A stretch of DNA of 31,708 nt from a virus, in IMG/VR virus record IMGVR_UViG_3300010885_042814, positions 1 through 31,708 of that record. The stretch is one strand, 5' to 3'. Positions 6,039-24,582 of this stretch are shown here, one piece after another (positions within the stretch are counted from its first letter, which is position 1; every line of letters starts with the position of its first letter). The position numbers were made by a program, and so were the translations under genes. The notes beneath the pieces were generated by a model, which saw only the letters and a program-made list of their open reading frames with translations, ran no database searches and was not told the DNA's origin.

Positions 6039-6366
6039 TAGCGACCTTCGCGCAGAGGCAACCAACCTCTGGCCAGCTCTTTCCTACCACTATGGACTGA
6101 GCTTCGAAGACATCACACGCATGCCGCGGTGGGCGCGCCGGCTTTACGCCGAAGCGCTCCCGCGGCTTCGCGCTGAAGACTTGCAGCTTTCGATTGAAGC
6201 TGCGTCGTACCCTCACATGAAGCCTGCTGCGCAGCGCAAGATACAGCGATCGCTGGAGCGCGCTCTTAAAGACTCGTCTAAGGAGCAGCTCACTGACGAC
6301 ACTGACTTCCAGAGTCGAATGGATGATGCTGGCATTGGTCTTGAGGAGGTGAGTGGCAATGCCTGA
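6010..6366 (+). CDS. Tail assembly chaperone, second frame (gpT-like)
   Basis: A 118-residue helical protein (from ATG 6010) rich in Arg, Ala and Leu, with NLWPALSYHYGLSFEDITRMPRWARRLY-type sequence that I associate with second-frame chaperones of actinophages. It overlaps the preceding gene by 29 bases and the tape measure start by eight. Relative to the first frame it is in +1 (equivalent to -2), not the -1 of lambda. AGGAGGAGGT at 5986-5995 is 14 bases before ATG 6010, too far for a normal start, so the product could instead be made by frameshifting from the first frame. The exact start is therefore uncertain. Confidence 0.6.
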   Translation: MSRQMDRTSSSDLRAEATNLWPALSYHYGLSFEDITRMPRWARRLYAEALPRLRAEDLQLSIEAASYPHMKPAAQRKIQRSLERALKDSSKEQLTDDTDFQSRMDDAGIGLEEVSGNA

Positions 6367-9300
6367 GTTAGGTAAGGCAACATATGAGATTGTCTTAAAC
6401 ACAAGGAAGTTCGAGCGTGATCTGAAGAAGACAGAGAAGGAGACCGATCGCTCAACGAAGAATATGAGCAGCGACTTCCGTGACGCGGAGTCAAGTGTCG
6501 ATTCACTCATCTCCAAGATCGGTAGAACGGGCACAGGGATTCGATCTATGTCTCGAGGCGCAGAACGAGACTTCAACGCTCTCGAGCGGAAGATAAAGAA
6601 ACTCAACCGTTCAGACCTTGACGTGCAAGTGAACCTCGGTCTCGATCGCACTCTACGGGACCTCAACACGCTTAGAGGACGACTACTCGACCTGCACGAA
6701 AGATCCTATGATGTTGACGTCAATGTCCGCGGAAGCGCATTCGCAGAGCTTGCAGCGATTCGCCTTGAGATGGTCGGGCTGAACAAGCACATCCTTGTGT
6801 CGCGCAATGGCTTCGGGATGATGTCGAGAATCTTCGGGCGCGGTGGCGTCGTTATGCGCGGCGCGATCAGTGGAGTGACGAATGCTTTTGAGTTCCTGGG
6901 CAAAGGCATCTCGTTCATTGGTGACATTGGATCAAAAGTGTTTGAAGCGCTCCAAGGTCCAATCGGCAAAGTTGGCATGGGTGTCTTTAGCTTGTCGTCA
7001 AAGCTTGGCGAGCTACTCCCGTTCCTTGGTCGGCTTGGGCCGCTACTCGGCGTGATCATCGCAGCCGTGGCTCTTCTTATCGCTGGCATCGTAGCTCTCA
7101 TTCCGCTCATCGTTGCGTGGGTAGCGTCTCTTGGGCAAGCAATCGTTGCGGTCGGTGCACTTGGCGTAGCTCTTATTGCTCTCCTGCTGCCAGCTCTTGC
7201 CGGGGGCGGCGCAGCCATACTTCGCTTCAAAGACACTGTGGAAGACGCTGGGTCTGCGGCGTCAAAGCTTAAAGACGCAGCAAAGAGTCTCGCAACAACT
7301 TTCAAAGACGTCACTGCCGGTGGCGCCGACGCTGCTCTCCTAGGCATACGCGACGCAGTGACTATGCTTGAGCCAATGCTTCGGAAGCTCAAGGATAACT
7401 TCACAGCTCTTGGCCAGTCCATAGGCAACATGGTCCGCTACTTGGGTCAGCAGTTTAGCAGTCCATTCTTTACCGAAGCTTTCGGGAAGCTGTTAAACGC
7501 TGGGCGTAAAGCTTTCGGACCTTTGGGCAAGATCATTGTGAACCTGTCGAAAGTGCTCACTAACATTGCTGTCGCTGCCATGCCTTACTTGCTCGCTGGC
7601 TTCCGTGCGATTGCTGGCGGCTTGAAAGGATGGGCACAAGGTACATCAAACACAAAGAAACTCAGCAACACAATCGGTGGACTCGTAGAGCATCTCTCTG
7701 TGTGGTGGGACCTCTTGAAGAACATTGCTGGAATGTTCGGCGACCTCTTTGGGCTGGTGGCAGACGAAGGAAAGGGCGCCACATCATGGCTCAACGACGC
7801 TGTGGTTCAGCTGCGTGAGTTCATCAACTCAGACTTAGGCAAGTCAGCGATTAAGACTTTCTTCCAAGAGATGATCCCGCTTGCTGTTGAGTTCCTTGGG
7901 TTCGTTGGGAAACTCATCGTGCTCTTCCTTCAGTTTGTTCAGTTTGCGGCGCCCGCGTTCACCGGTATCTTTAAGATCTTCAACTTCGTGCTTGACGTCT
8001 TGAACTTCATCATGGTGTATCTGAACAAGCTTCCGACTTTCGTCAAGGGGTTTGCTGTTCCGTTCTCGTTCATTCCTAAAGTGATCAACTTAATCATCAC
8101 CGTTGTGAAGCTGCTCGTGTCGGTTATGGCGTCCGCGGCCAAGTCGGTCGCAAGCGCGTGGGCAGCAGCAAGAGGGTCTCTTGCCGTAGTGTGGAACGCA
8201 ATCAGAAACATCGCTGTGAACACATGGGCAAAAGTTAAGAACGCTGTGGTGAACTCTGTTCGGTCAGCGGTGAACTGGCTTAAGACTGCGTGGACGAACG
8301 TAAAGGGATTCCTCGCAAGTCTGTGGGCCAGCATGAAAGCTGGGGTCGTCAACTTCGCAAAGGGCTTGAGAGATGGTGTGGTCAATGCTGTGAAGGGCGG
8401 GCTTAACGAAGTCATCAGCTTCTTGAACAGCGTCATTGGGATCTTGAACAAGTTGCCATTCATAGAGATTGGAACGATCGGATCTGTCGGCGGCGGAAGT
8501 AGCGGAAAGACTGGAACAACTGCTGGGCGAAGCATGGGAGTCGTTCGCAACCGAGCAACAGGAGGCAACTACGCGCCGCAAGCACTTGCGCGAGGAGGGC
8601 GCGTCAATCAGCCAACCGCAATCGTTGGCGAAGAAGCACCGGCTCATCCAGAGTTTGTGATTGCGACGAATCCAGCATACCGCTCCAGAAACATTCAGTA
8701 CTGGATGCAAGCAGGACACATGCTTGGCGTCCCAGGCTATGCTGAGGGCGGAATCATGGGCGCGCTGTCAGACGTCGCAGGCGTGATCGCGGGCGCTGTG
8801 AATCCTGTGAGTCTTGCGTCGAAAGTTCTTGGGACACTTCCATCCCCAGCAGGCGCGATGCCAGGATGGCTTGAGCCGATGGGAGCAGGCATACTTGGTA
8901 AAGCAAAAGACTGGGTGATGGAGAAAGCCAGCGTCACAAACCTGCTTAGCTCTGTCATTTCATCAATGGGCGGAGCAGGATCGTTTGAGAGCTGGGTAGA
9001 CTCACACACCGTCGCAACAACCAATGCAGTAGGTCAGCGGTTCGGCCTCTCGATGACGTCAGGATATAGAAGTCCCGGGCACAACAAAGCTGTGGGCGGA
9101 GTCTCTAACTCCCTTCACACTCATGGGTCGCCGTCAAATCCTGGAGCAACAGACTCAGTTGGCTCTTCAAGCGGCATGTCGTCAGCGATGAGCTTTGCTC
9201 GTTCAAACATTCCACTTAACGAACTTCTTACTCATGATGTTGGCTCTGGTCTCCACATGCACATGGGGTTCTTTGCGAAGGGCGGAAAGGTTGGCGACAA

Positions 9301-10165
9301 GAAGAAAGAGAAGCGCATCAAGGGATTCACAGCGCAGGAGTCAAAGCAGATCCGTGCACTTCAAGATGCGTACCGAGCAGCTCTCGGGACGAGGGGCATT
9401 GGTGATGACTTAACCACACTTGCTAATCTCCAAGACTACATGCGGACGCACCGCAGGAGTAAGCCTATTCAGCCGGGGCCAGATAATCCGTTCTTACCTG
9501 ACCCTGCTGCTGTTGTCGCGGGAATGCTTAAGCGCTCAGGACAGAGTCGTGGAGACCTTATGACAATGCTAGCAATGGCCGGTGGCACCCGAGGGTTCAC
9601 TGACGATTATGCGGTGATGCGTCTCATAATCCAGCAGAGCCAAGGTCGTGTGGCGCAGACGCAAGCAGACCTTAGCCGCGGGAAGAAGATACTTGACGAC
9701 TTGCGTAATAAGAGAGACGATGCTAAAGACGCAATGAAAGACGGTAAGACAGCAAAAGCGCGTGCTGCTGCCGCAGACAGATACAAGAGACTCAACAAGT
9801 CCATTGAGGCCGCAAAGACTTTCGTTAAGCTCCAGCAAGGAACGCTTAAGACAAGCCAGAGCACTCTTGACTCAGACATGATTCGTTATGGTCAAGCACT
9901 TACACCGTTCTGGGACTTCAGGTCAACTGCTAACCAATGGCCGGTGCCGCTCGCAAAGGGCGGTGTTGTGTCGTCGCCTACGCTGGCTCTCGTTGGTGAA
10001 GCAGGCACAGAGATTGTTGCGCCAGAGAACATGCTTCGCGAGATCGTGAGCGAAGGCGGGAGTAAGCGTGACGTGACTCTCAACTACACATTCACACAAG
10101 CGCCCGAGGATCCGTACACGCTACTGCGGCAGAGCGAGTTCGCTGCTAGGAGCGCGTTCAGCTGA
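6359..10165 (+). CDS. Tape measure protein with embedded M15-like peptidase
   Basis: A 1268-residue protein that sets tail length. ATG 6359 is preferred over GTG 6353 because GAGGAGGT (6343-6350) is then eight bases away. Order of regions: coiled coil (about 1-140), hydrophobic segments (about 150-310, including a long Leu/Ile/Val/Ala stretch around 225-290), further helices, Gly/Ser-rich linker (about 700), a GG-x-x-x-x-P-T-x-x-VGE repeat near 745 and again near 1200, and between them a peptidase-like domain (about 870-970). That domain has SGYRS (about 898), SLHTHG, GATD and HMHMGF, the order of the zinc ligands in M15-type D-Ala-D-Ala peptidases. An extra loop separates the first His from the Asp. 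It could open peptidoglycan during DNA entry. Confidence 0.85.
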   Translation: MPELGKATYEIVLNTRKFERDLKKTEKETDRSTKNMSSDFRDAESSVDSLISKIGRTGTGIRSMSRGAERDFNALERKIKKLNRSDLDVQVNLGLDRTLRDLNTLRGRLLDLHERSYDVDVNVRGSAFAELAAIRLEMVGLNKHILVSRNGFGMMSRIFGRGGVVMRGAISGVTNAFEFLGKGISFIGDIGSKVFEALQGPIGKVGMGVFSLSSKLGELLPFLGRLGPLLGVIIAAVALLIAGIVALIPLIVAWVASLGQAIVAVGALGVALIALLLPALAGGGAAILRFKDTVEDAGSAASKLKDAAKSLATTFKDVTAGGADAALLGIRDAVTMLEPMLRKLKDNFTALGQSIGNMVRYLGQQFSSPFFTEAFGKLLNAGRKAFGPLGKIIVNLSKVLTNIAVAAMPYLLAGFRAIAGGLKGWAQGTSNTKKLSNTIGGLVEHLSVWWDLLKNIAGMFGDLFGLVADEGKGATSWLNDAVVQLREFINSDLGKSAIKTFFQEMIPLAVEFLGFVGKLIVLFLQFVQFAAPAFTGIFKIFNFVLDVLNFIMVYLNKLPTFVKGFAVPFSFIPKVINLIITVVKLLVSVMASAAKSVASAWAAARGSLAVVWNAIRNIAVNTWAKVKNAVVNSVRSAVNWLKTAWTNVKGFLASLWASMKAGVVNFAKGLRDGVVNAVKGGLNEVISFLNSVIGILNKLPFIEIGTIGSVGGGSSGKTGTTAGRSMGVVRNRATGGNYAPQALARGGRVNQPTAIVGEEAPAHPEFVIATNPAYRSRNIQYWMQAGHMLGVPGYAEGGIMGALSDVAGVIAGAVNPVSLASKVLGTLPSPAGAMPGWLEPMGAGILGKAKDWVMEKASVTNLLSSVISSMGGAGSFESWVDSHTVATTNAVGQRFGLSMTSGYRSPGHNKAVGGVSNSLHTHGSPSNPGATDSVGSSSGMSSAMSFARSNIPLNELLTHDVGSGLHMHMGFFAKGGKVGDKKKEKRIKGFTAQESKQIRALQDAYRAALGTRGIGDDLTTLANLQDYMRTHRRSKPIQPGPDNPFLPDPAAVVAGMLKRSGQSRGDLMTMLAMAGGTRGFTDDYAVMRLIIQQSQGRVAQTQADLSRGKKILDDLRNKRDDAKDAMKDGKTAKARAAAADRYKRLNKSIEAAKTFVKLQQGTLKTSQSTLDSDMIRYGQALTPFWDFRSTANQWPVPLAKGGVVSSPTLALVGEAGTEIVAPENMLREIVSEGGSKRDVTLNYTFTQAPEDPYTLLRQSEFAARSAFS

Positions 10166-13911: not shown

Positions 13912-16593
13912 TTATCCTCCAAGCATTGAGTCGACGAGTTCGCTAAGAGCAACGACTCCATACGCGTACCCATCGCGGACGTTGTGTTCTCCAGCAACAA
14001 TACTCGGTCCTGGATGCACTCCGTCTTTCAGCAGCAACTCGATCCGACGAAACATGTTTGTCGCAGCAGCACTTGAGAGTCCAGCAGCTTTGAACATCTT
14101 TAAGAGCTCTGACTTGCGGTCTTTCAAGTCTTGAAGTATCTCCATGTGCTCGGGTCTGATCGTGCGGCCCTTTGCCATTGACATGAACGTGTCGTTCACC
14201 CACTCAAACTCATTCTCTGACAAGCACAGCCCATTGTCTATGACGTGCATCTTGCCATCATCATTGAACCAGAAGTTATTTGTGTGACGGTCAGTTTGAC
14301 CCGTCACAGCATCAAAGAGCGCAGCCAGCTCAATGTCTTCCTCGGTGGTTTCGCTGCCGTCGCCTGCGACGTTGGCGACTTCGCCCTTGAGCATGTTCTG
14401 AACGGATACTCTCTCGAGGTCAGCTGGATCGCTCACAGGAGCATCCGCAGCTCGCCTCTCCATCGAGATCATGTCTCGCTCTTCAGGTGTTAGAGCTCGT
14501 ACCCCGACTGATGGCGCTGGCACGCCCATCATCTCAGCAATCTGCCCCGCCATCCATTCACGTGAGTGATCTTGGCCTTCTGGAATCCCGTACTTCTGTG
14601 CCTGCCCTTGGCCGCCCTCGCCAGCAGTCTTAACGATGACCTTTGTTCCATCTTCGAGTTCGCCCTTCATCGCGTAAGAGATTCCTTCGCCTATGAGAAC
14701 AGTCACGTCCTTGATCGGCGACTGAGCAATAGGCATGTCTTCGCCCGCCATTGTTGCGCCTGCTGGTATCGCTCGCCCGGGGAAGAACTCGTCTGGCCCA
14801 GGCATGATAAGCTTTCGCGCTTCATCATAATCGCTCTGAAGCTTAGCAGCTTCTGCTGTCAAGCCACGGTTCTTGAGGGCGTTAATGATTGCTTCCACAG
14901 GATCGTCACCACTTCCCACTAGGACAAGATTCCTGTCGCCAGGGTCGTAGCCGCCACGGCGAAGAACTTCTGGGTCTCTGTTTGGAAGTCCAGCAGCAAT
15001 CACTCTATCTTGCACGCCGTTGTAAGCGTCACGAGCTTTTCTGAGCGCGTCCACAGCCTCAAAGTTAATCTCCGGATCGTCTGCTGCACTAAGTTCTTTA
15101 AGCTTCTTTATGTTGTCGTCAGACACGACTCCATCGTTATGCTCTCGTATAACGTTGTGAACTCTACTGATCTCAGCGAGAAGTGTCTGAAGTTCTTCGT
15201 CGGTCAAAGATCGTGGACCTTCGTACATAGTGTTCGTTAGGTAGCCGTGCTGCCACACGTCGAGCTCACTGAAGTCTTCAAGCGCATCAGCGAGAGCAGT
15301 GTGGCCAAAGTCTGTGTCAGTTCCTACGTGCATGTCAGCGATTGCTCGCATGTCGTCGAGATTCATCTTAAGGTCGGTAAGAGCGTCTTGAGCATAGTTA
15401 GCGTGTACGCCAGCGTAGTCCCAGAGCTCGTCACCTTCTAAGCCCTTCGCGCGACCACGCTGAATAGCTTTATCGTACTCATCAAGCTTCTTGCTCATGT
15501 CAGCAAGTCTACGCATAAAGTCACGCTCATCCTTGAATCCGCGACGCACATCCCGCAACACCTTCCTAGCTGGACTAATCTTATCTTCGCTCACTAAGTC
15601 TACCTTAGTCGGGAGGAGAGCTGCGATTGCACCACGGTACGCACGGCCAGCGTCAGCAATGTCAACAGCTATCGCTTCACGTTCTGGCTTGTCAGCATCG
15701 AAGAGAATCTGTTCTGCCTCAGCGGCAACGTTCTCTATCCGCTCAGCTCTCTCACGCTCAGCAAAGTCTTTCCTCGCAGCTTCGTTCGCTTCTCTTTCTT
15801 TCTCCTCCTCGCGAATGCGTGCCTGCTCAGCGAGCTTAGCGCGACGCTCTTCAATCTTTTCTTTAGCGTTTGGATCGACTCGTCTGAACTTCCCAAACTC
15901 CCAAAGCACTGCTGCATTCTTACGTCGCTTTGCTCTGACTTTTACCTGGCCTGCGTAGCGAACTGCTCCTGACTCTGAGTCGCGTACCCATACATCAAGC
16001 ATGAACTCTTTGCTTCGCTTCGGGTTCTGGCCAAGAGCAGGTGCCCACGCAAACACTTCTTCGTTCTGGAGCCCGCTACTGCGACCTTCGCCAATGGCAT
16101 CCGCAATCTGATTACGACGCGTCCTGACGAGACGCTTCATTGGCTCGGGATCCACAGTGTCACCAAAGCGGCCTTGAATCTTAATGTCGCCAAAGCCACG
16201 GAACTCAACTCCCGGAGGAATGATGGAGGGAATGGTCTCGTCGGGCTCGCGGACGGGAACACCGCGACCTGCGCGAGCCCCTGGCTCAATGGCAGCGACG
16301 TCCGTTCCGGCACGTCGCCGGTTCATAGCTTCTCTACCTTGCCGCTCTCTTTGGTTAATCCCCTCAACGACTGCCTCGAGCTCAGCGACTGCCAAGTCTG
16401 GGTCTACGATGAGGTCAGACAAGTCAGCGTTGAGAGACTCAGCGAACCGCCCAAACATGTCGCGAGGATGAAGCTTTGGATCCCATGGCACTCTTGGACG
16501 GTTAATGCCGCCAATCTTACTCACGCTTTCTTTCTGCCTCTGCTTGCGGAAGCGCTCTTGCTCGCGCTTTGCTTTGTCGGACAAGTACCCCAT
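13912..16593 (-). CDS. Head-operon protein with C-terminal PI3/4-kinase-like domain
   Basis: An 893-residue protein directly after the minor head gene. ATG 16593 is chosen because it overlaps the preceding TAA by one base (TAATG); an upstream in-frame start would run into that gene. Order: basic N-terminus; motif W37-D-P-x-x-H-P-R44 with G48-R-F50; mixed regions; a Glu/Arg/Ala-rich coiled coil (about 245-300); helical middle; kinase-like domain (about 630-880). In that domain K655 (VIVKT) fits the ATP-binding Lys, then comes an REWMAGQIAEMM helix, DRH-x-x-N at 768-773 and IDNG at 785-788, with a DDG turn between. Spacing and residues match PI3/4-kinase and related HipA-like catalytic and metal loops. 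Its substrate is unknown. Confidence 0.75.
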   Translation of the reverse strand: MGYLSDKAKREQERFRKQRQKESVSKIGGINRPRVPWDPKLHPRDMFGRFAESLNADLSDLIVDPDLAVAELEAVVEGINQRERQGREAMNRRRAGTDVAAIEPGARAGRGVPVREPDETIPSIIPPGVEFRGFGDIKIQGRFGDTVDPEPMKRLVRTRRNQIADAIGEGRSSGLQNEEVFAWAPALGQNPKRSKEFMLDVWVRDSESGAVRYAGQVKVRAKRRKNAAVLWEFGKFRRVDPNAKEKIEERRAKLAEQARIREEEKEREANEAARKDFAERERAERIENVAAEAEQILFDADKPEREAIAVDIADAGRAYRGAIAALLPTKVDLVSEDKISPARKVLRDVRRGFKDERDFMRRLADMSKKLDEYDKAIQRGRAKGLEGDELWDYAGVHANYAQDALTDLKMNLDDMRAIADMHVGTDTDFGHTALADALEDFSELDVWQHGYLTNTMYEGPRSLTDEELQTLLAEISRVHNVIREHNDGVVSDDNIKKLKELSAADDPEINFEAVDALRKARDAYNGVQDRVIAAGLPNRDPEVLRRGGYDPGDRNLVLVGSGDDPVEAIINALKNRGLTAEAAKLQSDYDEARKLIMPGPDEFFPGRAIPAGATMAGEDMPIAQSPIKDVTVLIGEGISYAMKGELEDGTKVIVKTAGEGGQGQAQKYGIPEGQDHSREWMAGQIAEMMGVPAPSVGVRALTPEERDMISMERRAADAPVSDPADLERVSVQNMLKGEVANVAGDGSETTEEDIELAALFDAVTGQTDRHTNNFWFNDDGKMHVIDNGLCLSENEFEWVNDTFMSMAKGRTIRPEHMEILQDLKDRKSELLKMFKAAGLSSAAATNMFRRIELLLKDGVHPGPSIVAGEHNVRDGYAYGVVALSELVDSMLGG

Positions 16594-17522
16594 TAAACAG
16601 ATTCTACATCGCGGAGTGGAAGTGGTGGGTCTTGGCCGTGCCATGTCTCAGCAGGCGGAAGCCAGTCTGCGTCGTACACTGGGACAAGAGTGCACCGGCA
16701 GTTTGGATGCTTGGGAGGCAGCTCAACATCTGTGACGACCCATGGATTCTGCGCAGCGATCTCGACGCAGTCGTCGCAGGGCGGGTAAGACTTGGGAGGC
16801 CCGATGCTTGGACCTGACGCGATGACCCAGTCAACTTGAGTGACTCCGTTCAAGTAGAGAGCATTAAAGTTCGTTGTCTCCCAGACAGCAGCAGTCTCGG
16901 TTCTGGCGATGCGTTCTGCTTGCCATCTGCGAAGCACGCTCCACTCGCGCTCAATCTCCGCAACAATCTCACCCATTGCTTTTGGCTTTGCTGGGTCAGT
17001 TGCTCGAATGATGATGTCACGGAGTCTGTCCAAGTGTTCGTTCGCAGCGAGCGCAAGAACCTTTGACCCGCGCACAGCGTGAATGTCGCGGGCCATGTCT
17101 CGAGGCGTCGTCCAGCGGAAAGTCTGGTTGAGTCCGAGCGTGTCCAGAGTGTGCTGTCCCGACTCTTCGCTGACTTCGCGAGCGAGACCAAGGTAAACAG
17201 CAACTCCTCCGCCAGCAAGCGCTCTGATGCCTCCAAAGATGCGCCTGAGCAAGCGGTCAAGTCTACTCGGGTCTGGGTCTCCACTGCGAGCTTTGCCTAC
17301 TTTGCTCCACATGTCTTGCGCAAGCTCTATCGCAGGCACAAGGTCAACCTCGTTGCTTGGCTTGAGCCACTGCTCGAACGAATGTGATGTTCTCTCTATC
17401 CACCGCTCACGAGCACGCCATCCAGCGCGCAGCATCGCAGCATCGTTCCTTGTGTTGACCTTCAGCAAGTCAAGCGCAAGGTACGCCTCACTGAGATCAG
17501 CGAGGTCTTTACTCCGCGCCAC
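16593..17522 (-). CDS. Minor head protein, SPP1 gp7 / Mu gpF-like
   Basis: A 309-residue protein from GTG 17522; AGGAG lies ten bases upstream. An in-frame TTG at 17591 exists, but it would add a very basic stretch that is only the portal gene read in another frame. The C-terminal part holds the family signature: a R-x-E-T-A helix (IARTETAAVWETTNFNALYLNG), CDDC, and HPNCRC (about 272-277) followed by a strand. This domain is found in proteins that sit inside the head at the portal. It overlaps the portal gene by 14 bases. The Cys/His set could bind a metal. Confidence 0.85.
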   Translation of the reverse strand: MARSKDLADLSEAYLALDLLKVNTRNDAAMLRAGWRARERWIERTSHSFEQWLKPSNEVDLVPAIELAQDMWSKVGKARSGDPDPSRLDRLLRRIFGGIRALAGGGVAVYLGLAREVSEESGQHTLDTLGLNQTFRWTTPRDMARDIHAVRGSKVLALAANEHLDRLRDIIIRATDPAKPKAMGEIVAEIEREWSVLRRWQAERIARTETAAVWETTNFNALYLNGVTQVDWVIASGPSIGPPKSYPPCDDCVEIAAQNPWVVTDVELPPKHPNCRCTLVPVYDADWLPPAETWHGQDPPLPLRDVESV

Positions 17523-19070: not shown

Positions 19071-19964
19071 TTACGCGGTCATCAGCTCATACGCTGCATC
19101 GCGCGCGTTCCGCCCCGCCCCGAAGAGCGACCCGGTGAGGCGGGCATTGTCCGTCCGGGGCTTGCGCGCCCAGTCGTAGTACTCGCCGATGGCGTTCAGA
19201 GCGCCCCACTGAGTTCCGCGGAACCCTTCGATGGTTGCGCTCGTCTTGTAGTTGGTGACGATGTCATCAGCCACCTTCTCCACGTCGGTCAGCTGGCCAA
19301 CGATCCGCTCGAACGACTCGTCAGAGATCCTCGTCTCCGCAAGCTGCCCCATCTTCTCGCCGAAGTCCTCCATGTAGGAGAACGTCAGCTCGAGCGAACG
19401 GCGTGCTTCGCTGAGTCGACTGTCCATCGTCCCGACGTGACGCACAGACCACTTGCGGGTGGTTGTGTTCAGCGCCAGGTTGAGCGTGTTCATGCACACG
19501 ACCCGCACAGGAGTGACAGCGGCTGTGATGCCGGTTGTCCCGTCGTGTGAGTTCATCAGCATGAGGTAGGTGTCGACCGGGTCCTCGCCTGCGATCATCA
19601 CAGACTCAGGAATCCGCATCATCATCCAGATCCACCGACCGTCGCGAAGTGCGCCGGCTGTCTCGTACTTGGCAGACCCGTCGTCCACGAGTGCGTCTGC
19701 GAACGCGAATGCGTCCTTGTTCTGCAGTGGCGTGTACTGCTCGCCAACCACTCCAAGAACCTTCTTGTCAGACATCCGCGTCGTGGCGTACTTGCCTGGG
19801 ATTGTGTCTCCGCCCACCAACTGAATGGGGAGCTTCTCCACAGCCCAGTCAAGTCCCGCCTCACGGAGGGCGTCCGATGCGGTAAGCTGCTCATCCACAA
19901 CGGTTCCCAAGCCGTGCCACGGGATTTCCCGGACAGACATCATGGTTTCTACTGCTGCTGGCAT
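19071..19964 (-). CDS. DUF932 phage/plasmid-like protein
   Basis: A 297-residue protein of the DUF932 / TIGR03299 type: the N-terminal WHGLGTVVDE, then VVGEQYTPLQNKDAFAFADAL and TAGALRDGRWIWMMMRIPES, TYLMLMNSHDGT and RVVCMNTLNLAL. The family is common in phages and plasmids but its function is unknown. It has a clear ribosome binding site (AAAGGAG) in a leader shared with the amidoligase gene. Its sequence is GC-rich (about 67% on the line at 19141) compared with the portal and lysis genes. It ends before a strong terminator, so it is a single-gene unit. Confidence 0.85.
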   Translation of the reverse strand: MPAAVETMMSVREIPWHGLGTVVDEQLTASDALREAGLDWAVEKLPIQLVGGDTIPGKYATTRMSDKKVLGVVGEQYTPLQNKDAFAFADALVDDGSAKYETAGALRDGRWIWMMMRIPESVMIAGEDPVDTYLMLMNSHDGTTGITAAVTPVRVVCMNTLNLALNTTTRKWSVRHVGTMDSRLSEARRSLELTFSYMEDFGEKMGQLAETRISDESFERIVGQLTDVEKVADDIVTNYKTSATIEGFRGTQWGALNAIGEYYDWARKPRTDNARLTGSLFGAGRNARDAAYELMTA

Positions 19965-20038: not shown

Positions 20039-20779
20039 GCGAATCGTGCAACTTTGTGAAGATGAAACTGTGTTCGCAGGAGCGCCCGAATAAGTGAACG
20101 TGCCTCGGAACTTCCAAGATCTTGAAGCGCATCTTGCGTGAACATAATGCTCAGTGATTCGTACTCGCTTACCCTTGCGCTTTATGACACGCTTCCACGA
20201 GCGTTGCACTCGGGTAGAGAACTCAACGATTGCGGAGTTAAGCGGAAGCGCAGGGATCGTCACGTCAAGCACAGACCCGAAGCCACTCTTTCCGTAAGGC
20301 TTCAACACACCAACGAGTGTGGTGCCTAGGGCAACAGCGTTCGTCCACGAATGCAACACAATGACTGGGTGACCGCTCTGCGGCGGTCCATTGAATGCGG
20401 TGATCTCCGCGTCAAGGATTGTGTCAGTGAAACCAGCGAGTGCAACGCGTCCAGCGCCCGTGCCAACGATGCTTGTGGGGCAGGCAGCACGAGCCATTGC
20501 GGCAGAGATGCCGTTCAAGTTTGCTCGGCACACGGGCAAGCCAGCTGCCGTGAACACGAAGTCATCGTCGAAGAAGATCTGCGCTCGAGTGGCTGGAGCA
20601 ATCTGCTCTCCAGCAACAACTGCGCCTGTGGTGGTCAAGACAGCGATGGATGCAGCGCTACGCTTGACTTTTGCGTGCTTCACCGGAGCACCAGCGACTG
20701 AGATTGTCTGAGTGTTAGATGCGCTAGCATCCGCAGCAAAGACAAGGAACACAGCAGCAATGATTGCGATGACTCTCAT
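20036..20779 (-). CDS. Secreted actinobacterial-type protein in the lysis cassette
   Basis: A 247-residue protein with a signal peptide (positively charged start, hydrophobic core to about residue 15, likely cleavage near ASA-SN at 20-21). The mature part has four Cys, a basic turn (KRVIKRKGKRVR) and a C-terminal FRGTFTYSG strand. It resembles a family of secreted proteins that I associate with Solirubrobacterales and relatives: an N-terminal PVC, an AACP, a VGTGAG segment, an AFNG loop, and RCASRSWKFRGTFTY. It overlaps the lysozyme stop by four bases (ATGA) and has GGAG upstream, so it is co-translated with lysis genes. It may act at the envelope. Its function is unknown. Confidence 0.65.
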   Translation of the reverse strand: MRVIAIIAAVFLVFAADASASNTQTISVAGAPVKHAKVKRSAASIAVLTTTGAVVAGEQIAPATRAQIFFDDDFVFTAAGLPVCRANLNGISAAMARAACPTSIVGTGAGRVALAGFTDTILDAEITAFNGPPQSGHPVIVLHSWTNAVALGTTLVGVLKPYGKSGFGSVLDVTIPALPLNSAIVEFSTRVQRSWKRVIKRKGKRVRITEHYVHARCASRSWKFRGTFTYSGAPANTVSSSQSCTIR

Positions 20780-21330
20780 GACTTGCTCCGGAAGAGGTCG
20801 CCTTCAGCCTTGCGCCGTCGCACCAAGCCAGGAAGTTCTTCGCCGCCTGCGTGAGTCCAGCGGTTCATCTCGCTGGGGACTGATGCGTAGTCGCCAGCAT
20901 TCAACTTCTTCAAGAGGGTGCTGCTTGTGAACGCGCCAATGCCTACGTTATAGACGAAGCTCACAAGCGCGTCAAGTTGGTTCTGGTTGAGCTTTACTCG
21001 CGTGAGATGATTCACAGCATCAGCTGCTGCGCTTGCTTCTTCGTGAAGCATCTGAAGTGCCTGCCCACGAGTGACGCCCTTGCTCCATTTAGTCTTGTCT
21101 GCTTTGGTGCAGTTGCCATAGTGCAAGAGCGTCCCATAGCCGACAGTGCAGTGGCCAGCGGGATCGTTGTATGGCTTTGAGTAGAAGCCTTCGAACTCAG
21201 CAATGAACGCAGCACCGTCCTGCGACAACTCCGTTGCTCGCGCCTCTTGCCTGCGCAAGCTAGCGATCTTCTTGCGAACTCGCTTAACTCTCTGGAGCAA
21301 GAAGCGAAGACGACGCTTGAGACGGTTCAT
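20776..21330 (-). CDS. Lysozyme of the T4/GH24 type
   Basis: A 184-residue enzyme that cuts the glycan chain of peptidoglycan. The first 35 residues are strongly basic and helical; the lysozyme domain follows. E47, D56 and T62 have the same spacing as E11, D20 and T26 of T4 lysozyme, within AEFEGFYSKPYNDPAGHCTVGYGT. Other family parts are LNQNQLDALVSFVYNVG and the C-terminal RRRKAEGDLF. It lacks an obvious signal peptide, so it should depend on the holin. It starts in a TAATG overlap with the M15 gene. The basic N-terminus may help it bind the wall. Confidence 0.9.
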   Translation of the reverse strand: MNRLKRRLRFLLQRVKRVRKKIASLRRQEARATELSQDGAAFIAEFEGFYSKPYNDPAGHCTVGYGTLLHYGNCTKADKTKWSKGVTRGQALQMLHEEASAAADAVNHLTRVKLNQNQLDALVSFVYNVGIGAFTSSTLLKKLNAGDYASVPSEMNRWTHAGGEELPGLVRRRKAEGDLFRSKS

Positions 21331-21698
21331 TAGAAAGTCTTCTTAGACGGCTTGGCTTTGCCTGGCTTGAACGCAAGGTGAAGGTGGTCGTAGTGACCTG
21401 ACGTTCTCCACAGCACTTCAGCGAACTTGCCACTGAACCTTGCGTACACCCAAACCTTTGCGCGGTCAAGCCGCGACCAGTTGCCATTAGCAGGCACAAA
21501 GTCAACAGCAAGTCCCTTGGTGTGATAAGAGCCAGGAGCACCACCGATCGCAGCGTTGTGCTCGGGCGACCGATACATCGAAGTTATGACGAGGCCAAAC
21601 TTCTCTGCGATCCTCTTGCCATAGACGAGAGTGGTCTGGTGCTTCTCGCCGCGAGGGAACACTCCACGCCGCTTTGCTGTCTTCTTTCGCTTTGCCAT
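21330..21698 (-). CDS. M15-type peptidase (endolysin)
   Basis: A 122-residue enzyme of the D-Ala-D-Ala carboxypeptidase/endopeptidase type, hydrolysing peptide cross-links or stem ends. The zinc and catalytic residues are visible: SMYRSPEHNAAIGG, then SYHTKGLAVDF with H59 and D66, and GHYDHLHLAF with D104 and H107. The first 16 residues are very basic. It is short, consistent with a bare catalytic domain. It pairs with the GH24 lysozyme in one cassette, giving two cleavage specificities. Its ATG has no ribosome binding site but follows a TAAGAT box by six bases. Confidence 0.85.
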   Translation of the reverse strand: MAKRKKTAKRRGVFPRGEKHQTTLVYGKRIAEKFGLVITSMYRSPEHNAAIGGAPGSYHTKGLAVDFVPANGNWSRLDRAKVWVYARFSGKFAEVLWRTSGHYDHLHLAFKPGKAKPSKKTF

Positions 21699-21735: not shown

Positions 21736-22386
21736 TCACTCTGAGAATCGGTAAGCGATGTACCTCAGCCGCTCGTTATTGCAGTGGTGCTCGCCGTTCT
21801 GGTCGAGCAGTAGCAAACCGTCTTTGCTTAGCGACAGTAGCTGTCCTAATAGAGATGTTGGGGGGCCATCTAAGACGACTTGAGCGAGGACTCCTGTTTC
21901 CCTACCAGTTGCGAATCTCGCCACGCGACGCACGCGCCTGACGCGGTCTGCAGTAGTCATATGAACGCCTGCCTTGCTGAACTCAGTTGCGTGGACAGAC
22001 GCAGCCTTAGCACTGTGGAATCGCTCAAGCATGCCAATGAAGGTCGTGACAAACTCAATGCCGTGCGCTGGGAAGACTGACGAGACAACGTGATGCGTGA
22101 CTTCGTGAAGTAGAATCTCCATGCGAACTTCGCCGCTCTGTCGAATCACACACTTGTCTCGCATGTAAGCCAGCCGCCCACTGTCACCGGGGAACTCTTC
22201 CACCAAGAGAGACTGGACGCGGTAGGCATCGCACACGCGAGCAACGATGGTGTTGGCTTCGGCTGCAGCAACAGCAACGCGCGGCAACTTGCTCCACGCA
22301 GCTTCCTCAGCAGCAATCACACGAGCACGCTGGAAGTCTGTGACTGCCGGCGGCTCGTGTGGAAGGTCAGCTGGCCGCGTGATCAT
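21736..22386 (-). CDS. Zinc metallopeptidase-like protein, TIGR04338-like
   Basis: A 216-residue protein with the zinc motif H94-E95-V-T-H98 and a further H108 in AHG, in LLHEVTHHVVSSVFPAHGIEF. This H-E-x-x-H plus later HG pattern resembles the actinobacterial TIGR04338 metallohydrolase type. No signal peptide is seen, so it should be cytoplasmic or virion-associated. It is the last gene of a four-gene operon that starts with the amidoligase and overlaps the cyclotransferase stop by four bases. Composition is nearer 53% GC on the line sampled, between its neighbours. Substrate unknown; it could release or mature a conjugate made by the operon. Confidence 0.7.
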   Translation of the reverse strand: MITRPADLPHEPPAVTDFQRARVIAAEEAAWSKLPRVAVAAAEANTIVARVCDAYRVQSLLVEEFPGDSGRLAYMRDKCVIRQSGEVRMEILLHEVTHHVVSSVFPAHGIEFVTTFIGMLERFHSAKAASVHATEFSKAGVHMTTADRVRRVRRVARFATGRETGVLAQVVLDGPPTSLLGQLLSLSKDGLLLLDQNGEHHCNNERLRYIAYRFSE

Positions 22387-23000
22387 CCTTCGACAGCTTC
22401 AAGCTCAAAGAGCTTGCGTGTTGCGATGCTCATGCCGTGGAAGAAGTCATCTTCGCTTGTGTCGTAGAAGTCATCGTCCGCAACATCGCCCCACTCGAAG
22501 CCATCGTACTGCGGCGCTGGCTTTAGCCTCTTAGGTCCGTCGGACACAAACTCCGTGATGCCGATTGCTCGCAACTCGCGGTACACGTCCTTCACAGCGA
22601 AGGTCAGCACCTTGTGGGGGAGGACGAAGTCGCTGTACCCACGACGGATGGTTGCGAGGTAGGAGCTGCTCGGCGGAGTAATCCCGTCCTGCTTAACCAT
22701 CACATAGGTGATTGCCTTCATCGTTCCGACAGCGGTTTCGACTTCAACCTCGCGGCGATCGTAGAGGTGTGGCGCTCCTTCGTAGCGGTCCAGCGACTTC
22801 ATGTCTTCGTCGGTGCACCACCACAGTCCGCCCCACACGTCTTGGCCGCTGGCCTGCTCGATGTCAGCGACACCGCGGAAGGTCAGTTGCCAGTCGCGCA
22901 AGAGTGCGGTCCGCCAGCGCTCAGCTGTTGGGCACCGTGCTGCCATCGCGCGCGTGTCCAAGTTGGAACCGTATGCGAAGTAGAGAGTTCTGCCTTTCAT
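22383..23000 (-). CDS. Gamma-glutamylcyclotransferase / AIG2-like protein
   Basis: A 205-residue protein. The N-terminal LYFAYGSNLD (YGSN at 10-13) is the classic phosphate- or substrate-binding loop of the GGCT/AIG2 family, and E74 in LDRYEG is the expected catalytic Glu. These enzymes remove gamma-glutamyl groups by forming pyroglutamate. It is encoded two genes after an amidoligase and is coupled on both sides by ATGA overlaps. An amidoligase with a cyclotransferase is a pairing described for phages and bacteria, where one makes and the other breaks a glutamyl bond. The C-terminal third (after about residue 130) is acidic and less typical. Confidence 0.8.
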   Translation of the reverse strand: MKGRTLYFAYGSNLDTRAMAARCPTAERWRTALLRDWQLTFRGVADIEQASGQDVWGGLWWCTDEDMKSLDRYEGAPHLYDRREVEVETAVGTMKAITYVMVKQDGITPPSSSYLATIRRGYSDFVLPHKVLTFAVKDVYRELRAIGITEFVSDGPKRLKPAPQYDGFEWGDVADDDFYDTSEDDFFHGMSIATRKLFELEAVEG

Positions 23001-23266
23001 CGTAGGTCCTCCAGTTCCTTGTCGTCTCGTATGATCTTGAGCATACCCGCCGCTTCTAGGCCGTGGATGAACTCCTTGGCTGAGATCGCCGGGTCAATCT
23101 GTATGTCTCCCGCGGACCAGATGTAAGCCCGCTTGACCAGCACCTCACGAAGCTCGTCATCTGACAGATCGCTGTTCCACGGCATATCGGAGATACCGTT
23201 GAGCAGCGCTTGCCACGTAGGCGCTGTCTGGTGGTGGCCGTCTGGCCAGATTACCTGGACTGTCAT
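22997..23266 (-). CDS. Small protein of the amidoligase operon
   Basis: An 89-residue protein with an N-terminal strand (MTVQVIWPDGHHQTAPTW), then an acidic middle (DLSDDELREVLVKRAYIWSAGD) and a helix with SAKEFIHGLEAAGMLKI. It lies between the amidoligase and the cyclotransferase with four-base ATGA overlaps at both ends, and GAGGTGG precedes its ATG. No family is recognised. A small acidic partner between the two enzymes might be a substrate or regulator of conjugation; this is inference from position only. Confidence 0.65.
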   Translation of the reverse strand: MTVQVIWPDGHHQTAPTWQALLNGISDMPWNSDLSDDELREVLVKRAYIWSAGDIQIDPAISAKEFIHGLEAAGMLKIIRDDKELEDLR

Positions 23267-24429
23267 GCGACCACCTCACCAGCGCGACGGGCGCGGGAGC
23301 GGAACCCGGTTGCTCGGTTCTGAAGGTAGGTCCGCTCCGGCGACCGGCTGAAGCCGATTGCGTCGAAGAGCTTGGCGACACTGTCCTGCTGGCCGATGCC
23401 CTCGCGCTGCTGGCCTACCGCGTCAGCCATGCTCATCAGCATCTTGACCCAAGCGCCGACCTTCTTGAACTCGACGCTGCCGCCGTGCTGCCGGAACTCA
23501 ACCGTGCCGAGTCGTGGGAAGGCGCTCACGTTCACGGTCTTGTACTTGTCGAAGCCGCTCAAGTTGCGGACCCGGTCAAGACGGTGAAGCTCGTCCTCCC
23601 GCCACTCACGGCACCATCTGCCATTGCGCCTGCTTGGCGAGACGAGCCAGTTGATGAGCTTCTGATTACTCACGTAAGCGCGGACGAGCTTGCGGATCCC
23701 CGCGGCCTTCGCGTCACGCATCTCCAAGTGAATGTGGATGCCGCAAGAGCGGTCAGCCTTGCCACCCGCAGACTTCAGGGCGGCGCACGCAGTCTCCAGC
23801 TGCCGCATTCCGTCCTCACCCTTGAGGATGGGCGACACCAGCTCGAGGCCGTATGTCTCGCCTGTGCGAGTGTTGCGAACCGACTGGTCGTACTTGATGG
23901 CCCACTGCCCGGATGACGCAGAGGCAGGGGCCCAGCCGCGACCGCGGCGAACCTCAAGACCTGCTGCCTCAAGGGCGTCGTACACCTTTGCGCGTGTGGT
24001 GCCATTGAACTCAAGCTCAACGCCGAAGCGTCGCTCAAGCCCAAGCGCTGCGAACAGTCCGCCTGCGCGGCGGGGATTGCGTCCAGCGCGACGTCCGGTG
24101 GCGTTGGCTGCTGCGTGATGCAGCAGCGGCAGCGCGTTCTCTGGTTGGACTGGGTACGCGCCGCCACGCAGGTTGCGTGGGTACGCGCCGTGGACCCGCA
24201 TGCGGAACCGAGCATCGTCGCTCAGATCCTCGCCGGCGGACCACATCGCTTCAATGTTTTCGTCGGGGTAGTCGCTCATGTCCGCCTTCAAGTCGAAGCG
24301 GACGAAGCCGGATCCTGGGACTGCCCAAGCGAACACAATGCCGCGTTCGTTGAGCAGACGAGCGTAGTTGCGCGACGGAGCGACCCGGTACTCAAAGCCA
24401 AGGTCTGCGATCTGGTCCTCGTACTTCAT
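23263..24429 (-). CDS. Amidoligase-like (COOH-NH2 ligase) enzyme
   Basis: A 388-residue protein. The ligase domain (about 131-345) shows RFGVELEF (135-141), YGLELVSPIL (194-202), CGIHIHL (229-235) and TVEFRQHGGS (309-318), the metal and ATP-binding pattern of the glutamine-synthetase-like amidoligase family (Pfam Amidoligase_2). It should form an amide bond between a carboxylate and an amine. Residues 1-130 form an extra domain I do not recognise, containing an SRNYARLLNERG strand. The gene has a good promoter and the AAAGGAG site, heads a four-gene operon, and is GC-rich (70% on the line at 23881). Target of conjugation unknown. Confidence 0.85.
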   Translation of the reverse strand: MKYEDQIADLGFEYRVAPSRNYARLLNERGIVFAWAVPGSGFVRFDLKADMSDYPDENIEAMWSAGEDLSDDARFRMRVHGAYPRNLRGGAYPVQPENALPLLHHAAANATGRRAGRNPRRAGGLFAALGLERRFGVELEFNGTTRAKVYDALEAAGLEVRRGRGWAPASASSGQWAIKYDQSVRNTRTGETYGLELVSPILKGEDGMRQLETACAALKSAGGKADRSCGIHIHLEMRDAKAAGIRKLVRAYVSNQKLINWLVSPSRRNGRWCREWREDELHRLDRVRNLSGFDKYKTVNVSAFPRLGTVEFRQHGGSVEFKKVGAWVKMLMSMADAVGQQREGIGQQDSVAKLFDAIGFSRSPERTYLQNRATGFRSRARRAGEVVA

Positions 24430-24582
24430 GTTGCTACTCCTTTCGTTCGACTAACTTGAGAACATCCTACCAGGTTCTGAGAGACTTGTCAAGGAAATCT
24501 TGAGATTCTCTTTAGAGCCCGATTCCTTTACTGTGAACAGATCGTATCAGGTCTGCCCGACAGATGCAACTGCGAATGAAAC
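24430..24582 (-). promoter_or_regulatory. Tandem promoters and leader of the amidoligase operon
   Basis: This 153-base gap holds a near-consensus promoter: TTGACA (24487-24492), 17-base spacer, TAGGAT (24464-24469). A second one lies upstream: TTGCAT (24564-24569), 17-base spacer, extended -10 TACGAT (24541-24546). The second shares ATCGTATCAGGT with the DUF932 promoter. The leader carries AAAGGAGTA, also shared. No strong terminator for the fibre operon was found here. Confidence 0.75.

Follow-up and report, generated by a model that had tools for sequence, protein, structure and literature searches.

A small protein family linked to phage amidoligases, seen from a four-gene amidoligase-cyclotransferase operon of a siphovirus-like phage

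Introduction

The pairing of an amidoligase with a gamma-glutamyl cyclotransferase (GGCT) has been described in phages, where it is treated as a putative 'peptidoglycan modification module' (PMC5498523, PMC11945000). In relatives of LUZ24, phiEco32 and RIO-1, the module comprises an amidoligase, a GGCT, a glutamine amidotransferase (GATase) and an ATP-grasp enzyme, and later papers cite Iyer et al. 2009 for it. A cassette of this kind is also found in Arthrobacter phages, for which the available sections of the genome paper mention only the GGCT, the amidoligase and gene 99 (PMC5513430). Phage amidoligase cassettes have long been annotated under a cell-wall hypothesis that has gone untested.

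Here we analysed an operon in a viral sequence of 31,708 nucleotides (IMG/VR record IMGVR_UViG_3300010885_042814, in full, hereafter the window). The initial annotation, made from the sequence alone, read it as four coupled genes that include an amide-forming and a gamma-glutamyl-breaking enzyme, and took this pairing to be a known one; both points held, the latter through the phage literature cited above. As judged from sequence comparison, what is newly recognised here is the small protein encoded between the two enzymes, a conserved third component of a known kind of cassette.

Results and discussion

Organisation of the operon

The four ORFs run on the minus strand from 24429 to 21736 and encode, in this order, an Amidoligase_2 enzyme, a small protein, a GGCT-type enzyme and a protein with an HEVTHH motif (Table 1). 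All three junctions are ATGA overlaps (23266-23263, 23000-22997 and 22386-22383). Such overlaps by themselves are ordinary for phage operons; it is the reappearance of three of these genes in other loci that exceeds chance expectation. The amidoligase ATG is preceded by the ribosome-binding site AAAGGAG, and just upstream of the gene lies a promoter whose -35 box is perfect; a search for its exact pattern gave a single match in the window and none in any of 100 shuffles. The gene of an M15 peptidase starts 37 nt downstream of the operon.

Table 1. Features of the operon and its surroundings (positions in the window)
Feature	Position	Strand	Basis
Sigma-70-like promoter, TTGACA-17-TAGGAT (17-nt spacing), TG before the -10 box	24464..24492	-	pattern search
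Amidoligase, 388 aa; residues 131-388 predicted as GS-fold catalytic domain, residues 1-130 disordered	23263..24429	-	PF12224 8e-37; AF2 + Foldseek
Small partner protein, 89 aa, from an amidoligase-linked family without previous description	22997..23266	-	profile + neighbourhood survey
Gamma-glutamyl cyclotransferase-like enzyme, 205 aa, with a C-terminal extension of ~60 residues	22383..23000	-	PF06094 7e-14
HEVTHH putative metallopeptidase, 216 aa, distant TIGR04338/Rv0185 relative	21736..22386	-	weak NCBIfam match
M15 peptidase (endolysin-like); neighbouring gene, not counted in the module	21330..21698	-	PF08291 7e-13
GH24 phage lysozyme; neighbouring gene, not counted in the module	20776..21330	-	PF00959 1e-44

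The phage is tailed and siphovirus-like, with capsid, portal, tail tube, tape measure and Dit genes recognised in the record. Another contig from this phage was 99.97% identical over the 10.5 kb compared. The 31.7-kb record, which may be a fragment, gave no match to class-II glutamine amidotransferases (PF13522) or to RimK-type ATP-grasp ligases (PF08443). A second COOH-NH2 ligase (PF14395) was likewise without a match in the record, and the control genomes gave none either.

Several other features of the record were observed. The contig starts with a short direct repeat (1-87), in which positions 1-45 are identical to 43-87. Beside a portal gene and a gene for Mu F-like head morphogenesis, the minus-strand ORF at 13912-16644 codes for a protein of 910 aa whose C-terminal part weakly matches the SCO1664 family and a PI3-PI4-kinase-like domain. 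A TIGR03299/DUF932 phage-plasmid-like protein is encoded at 19071-19964 on the minus strand; in the phage collection this family is commonest among actinobacterial phages. The tape-measure protein (6353-10165, plus strand) contains a Peptidase_M15_3 segment at residues ~888-931 that is related to the separate M15 peptidase.

Linkage of the small protein to amidoligases

Single-protein searches of IMG/VR with the window proteins returned only the second contig of the same phage, and neither the small protein nor the peptidase matched anything in searches of phage records, so relatives surfaced only through an alignment-based search with the amidoligase. These scans provided 80 viral and 80 genome loci, and architectures were read in 172 loci. 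The divergent sets of small proteins held too few conserved stretches for alignment scans of their own.

When the ORFs around the amidoligases were clustered, the most frequent neighbour family proved to be a protein, mostly of 76-120 aa, homologous to the 89-aa protein of the window. Because the loci had been fetched through the amidoligase, position and strand were tested separately. All 96 profile matches among 12,326 ORFs (91 loci and five copies of the window's own sequence) lay on the amidoligase strand, 0-1.2 kb downstream of it, with none elsewhere. The profile gave no match against reversed sequences, and one built without the window sequence still recovered the window protein at 9e-13. 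In the reverse direction, a search from a small-protein subfamily found an amidoligase in 18 of 19 viral loci, and the contig of the nineteenth extends only 458 bp upstream of the match.

The small protein was present in 91 of the 172 loci, directly after the amidoligase in 61 and, in 21, directly after a class-II GATase that itself follows the amidoligase. It accompanied 60 of 106 amidoligase clusters (70% identity), and its presence was strongly clustered on the amidoligase tree. About half of the surveyed loci, mainly of clostridial prophages and Paenibacillus, were without it, which indicates that the small protein is not required by every Amidoligase_2. Pairwise distances of the amidoligases and of the small proteins were correlated (r=0.72, n=83 loci; permutation maximum 0.11), so the two have diversified together. 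This correlation demonstrates co-inheritance rather than contact, since linkage alone can produce it. In three loci (L085, L093 and L124) the small protein seemed to be fused, but this was traced to over-long ORF calls from distant start codons.

The recurring association of all four genes envisaged in the initial annotation was borne out for three of them. The triad of amidoligase, small protein and GGCT was found in about eight other viral lineages, and exactly this gene order was seen in loci L057, L058, L063/L064, L073, L075, L076, L079 and L083 as well as in the window. The peptidase did not follow this pattern: a comparable HExxH gene occurred at the operon in one of 172 neighbourhoods, that of the window itself, the three other motif matches being unrelated or incidental. 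The four-gene reading is thus specific to this phage.

We also observed a member of the TIGR03299/DUF932 cluster behind the GGCT gene in the triad loci L064 and L073. In a set of clostridial prophage-like loci (L138, L143, L145, L147, L151-L153, L157, L159 and L162), the amidoligase and GGCT genes stood just before the terminase and portal genes. Upstream of the amidoligase, most of these carried a DUF4314-type small protein (~75 aa; Pfam match from the L139 member), and none in the set had a member of the new small family.

Structure and conservation of the amidoligase

The family assignments of the amidoligase and the GGCT are secure. The amidoligase scored 127.8 bits against PF12224, for which the curated cut-off is 22. 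Fourteen residues (G136, E138, E140, D181, E196, H232, H234, R267, N300, E311, R313, H315, K323 and W327) were invariant over 69 diverse amidoligases and are all kept in the window enzyme, including the putative active-site residues of the GxExE motif, D181, H232/H234, N300 and E311xR313. In the AlphaFold2 model, the catalytic domain was confidently predicted from about residue 131. Residues 1-130, which the initial annotation had singled out for structure prediction, were modelled with low confidence and no confident fold, and the alignment hardly covers this stretch.

A Foldseek search with the model returned glutamine synthetases, YbdK, gamma-glutamylmethylamide synthetase (GmaS) and Dop with probabilities of 0.99-1.00, at low TM-scores (0.3-0.4) that are partly owing to the disordered N-terminal 130 residues. 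No relation to solved structures was detectable by sequence. On the amidoligase tree, the nearest sequences by path were those of L044, Ottawa, L067, L082 and Kovu, all accompanied by a GATase, but this placement is unsure because the branch of the window enzyme is long.

Fold and conserved residues of the small protein

The small protein had no informative Pfam or NCBIfam match, and four of 72 family members matched phrog_16392, a group of unknown function. The AlphaFold2 model (mean pLDDT 88.9) shows the order strand-strand-helix-helix-helix-strand. A fold search of the PDB with this model matched no solved structure, and a viral structure library contained the same fold in four uncharacterised phage proteins (TM ~0.63-0.78). 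The most conserved residue was Arg46, found in 65 of 66 sequences, followed by Phe66 and Leu70. Across these 66 sequences there was no conserved Lys, Glu, Asp, Gln or Cys, no acceptor residue and no C-terminal motif, and the C-termini were divergent. Such conservation is more in line with a binding or regulatory subunit than with a substrate of conjugation.

The initial annotation had suggested a tag substrate. The small protein would then be a substrate, a tag or an amino-group carrier, like Pup or LysW, that the amidoligase attaches to a target, or whose glutamyl group it attaches, while the GGCT and the peptidase reverse or process the conjugate. The obligatory linkage to a ligase, the appearance of the GS-fold depupylase Dop among the structural matches and the peptidase gene in the same operon are in keeping with such a scheme. 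However, a confidently predicted three-helix/three-strand domain with divergent C-termini, in which no Glu, Gln, Lys or Asp is invariant, speaks against a tag, and the peptidase is missing from all other loci. We therefore regard the tag scheme as unlikely; the small protein shows the behaviour of an obligate ligase partner, and its conservation suggests that it is probably a structural or regulatory one.

The GGCT-type enzyme and the HExxH protein

The GGCT-type protein aligned with human GGCT at 6e-12, with the YGSNL motif and the catalytic Glu in register. In locus L074 (1273-3967), the amidoligase is followed by a Peptidase_C26 (PuuD-like) gamma-glutamyl hydrolase, and no GGCT was recognised nearby. 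This is again a pair of maker and breaker, and points to the same chemistry. Two unusual forms were noted: a GGCT gene that seemingly encodes two tandem GGCT domains (L016:1371-2609), and a single ORF containing both amidoligase and GGCT in L149, either a real fusion or an assembly or frameshift artefact, which was left out of the evidence.

The HEVTHH protein, like the small protein, had no Pfam match. It contains the pattern HEVTHH...HGIEF and shares HExxH followed by HGxEF with the TIGR04338 (Rv0185) metallohydrolases; the match to this family (E=3e-6) spans only residues 87-141, and its 27.1 bits are well under the curated cut-off of 90. Distant relatives were present in two actinomycete genomes, and one of them, that of L198, aligned with the window protein over the HExxH/HGxEF region at 5e-6 (two-sequence E-value). 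Speculatively, this phage-specific addition might trim a peptide product or a host protein.

A lineage-specific HExxH peptidase could also speak for a modification of proteins in counter-defence or host takeover, and protein modification has been proposed for other phage-borne ligases, the R2K ATP-grasp enzymes (PMC4431377). Yet PADLOC matched none of the proteins and no defence genes were recognised around the operon, so the defence role raised in the initial annotation appears quite improbable.

Proposed function of the operon

We favour, with slightly better than even confidence, the explanation that the operon is a gamma-glutamyl-amide module, in which a ligase with an accessory subunit is counteracted by the GGCT, with the HExxH protein as an addition of this phage. 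As a GS-fold carboxylate-amine ligase, the amidoligase would use ATP to activate a carboxylate, most likely the gamma-carboxyl of a glutamyl group, and join it to an amine or ammonia. The GGCT-type enzyme would strip gamma-glutamyl groups as 5-oxoproline, making the modification transient or keeping it in check.

PurS of PurLQS and GatC of GatCAB are subunits of ~80-100 aa in amide-forming enzymes and are often encoded with a glutaminase. By analogy to these, the 89-aa protein may be a dedicated non-catalytic subunit of the ligase, serving in assembly, substrate docking or the delivery of ammonia or an amine, with Arg46 at its functional surface. The frequent GATase suggests such ammonia or amine delivery in relatives; its absence from the window, whose record may be incomplete, counts against the explanation.

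The target is a matter of choice among candidates, either a cell-wall precursor or a small metabolite. Late in infection, the module might alter stem-peptide amidation or the cross-linking amines in order to exclude superinfecting phages or to time lysis; this is compatible with the favoured explanation and concerns the target alone. A cell-wall role of this type was proposed for LUZ24/phiEco32/RIO-1-type phages (PMC5498523, PMC11945000, PMC10580990). In the present phage the reading is favoured by the M15 and GH24 peptidoglycan hydrolase genes directly downstream of the operon, whereas in most relatives the module is surrounded by genes for replication or packaging and not by those for lysis. 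GGCT enzymes depend on the alpha-amine of the L-gamma-glutamyl group being free, and the D-iGlu of stem peptides is acylated. This argues against D-iGlu of peptidoglycan being directly shared as a substrate, and it is not obvious that the pair acts on peptidoglycan itself. We hold the cell-wall target to be possible, at rather less than even odds. Both enzymes are better matched by a small gamma-glutamyl amine, or by an amine that has received a gamma-glutamyl group, than by D-iGlu.

Auxiliary nitrogen metabolism, in which soluble gamma-glutamyl amides or amino acids are made and recycled for the infected cell, is another tentative reading. The folds closest to that of the amidoligase include those of gamma-glutamylmethylamide and naphthylamine synthetases, and the available text of a study of Phage-ZRK32 (PMC10945688) assigns amidoligase, GATase and GGCT genes a role in nitrogen metabolism. 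That role was deduced from growth with added phage rather than from assays of single enzymes, according to the same text, and the reading leaves a specific partner protein unexplained.

A bolder form of the gamma-glutamyl-amide explanation, which we find conceivable but somewhat doubtful, is that the small protein represents a new, widespread class of accessory subunits for GS-fold amidoligases in phages. Together with the GGCT it would complete a reversible gamma-glutamylation machine with a dedicated target, and the metallopeptidase would have been recruited in this phage to release or process that target. For biochemical reconstitution, the conserved partner of one large amidoligase branch is a missing component. 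Since the cultivated Arthrobacter phages Laroye, Salgado and Ottawa carry this partner, its function is directly testable.

Comparison with known systems

With glutamine synthetase, YbdK and gamma-glutamylmethylamide synthetase, the amidoligase shares the predicted fold of the catalytic domain, from which we infer a glutamyl-activating chemistry. The likeness of the small protein to PurS and GatC is one of working principle only, as its model has no structural match to either.

Like the phage peptidoglycan-modification module, the window has the genes of an Amidoligase_2 and an AIG2/GGCT enzyme grouped in a single block. It differs in having neither the GATase nor the RimK-type ATP-grasp ligase and in adding a peptidase and the small partner protein, which goes unmentioned in the accessible parts of the published accounts of that module.

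The cassette of the Arthrobacter Laroyevirus phages and Ottawa consists of the GGCT gp97, the amidoligase gp98 and the GATase gp99, and its amidoligase is related to that of the window (37-42% over the matched part). Here, unlike in the window, the GATase lies between the ligase and the small protein, the GGCT is upstream and there is no HExxH gene. The same small-protein family is encoded after the GATase in 14 such phage records, annotated only as a hypothetical protein. These include the cultivated phages Laroye, Salgado, Kovu, Ottawa and their relatives, and in the circularly permuted Laroye-type records the small-protein gene is gene 1.
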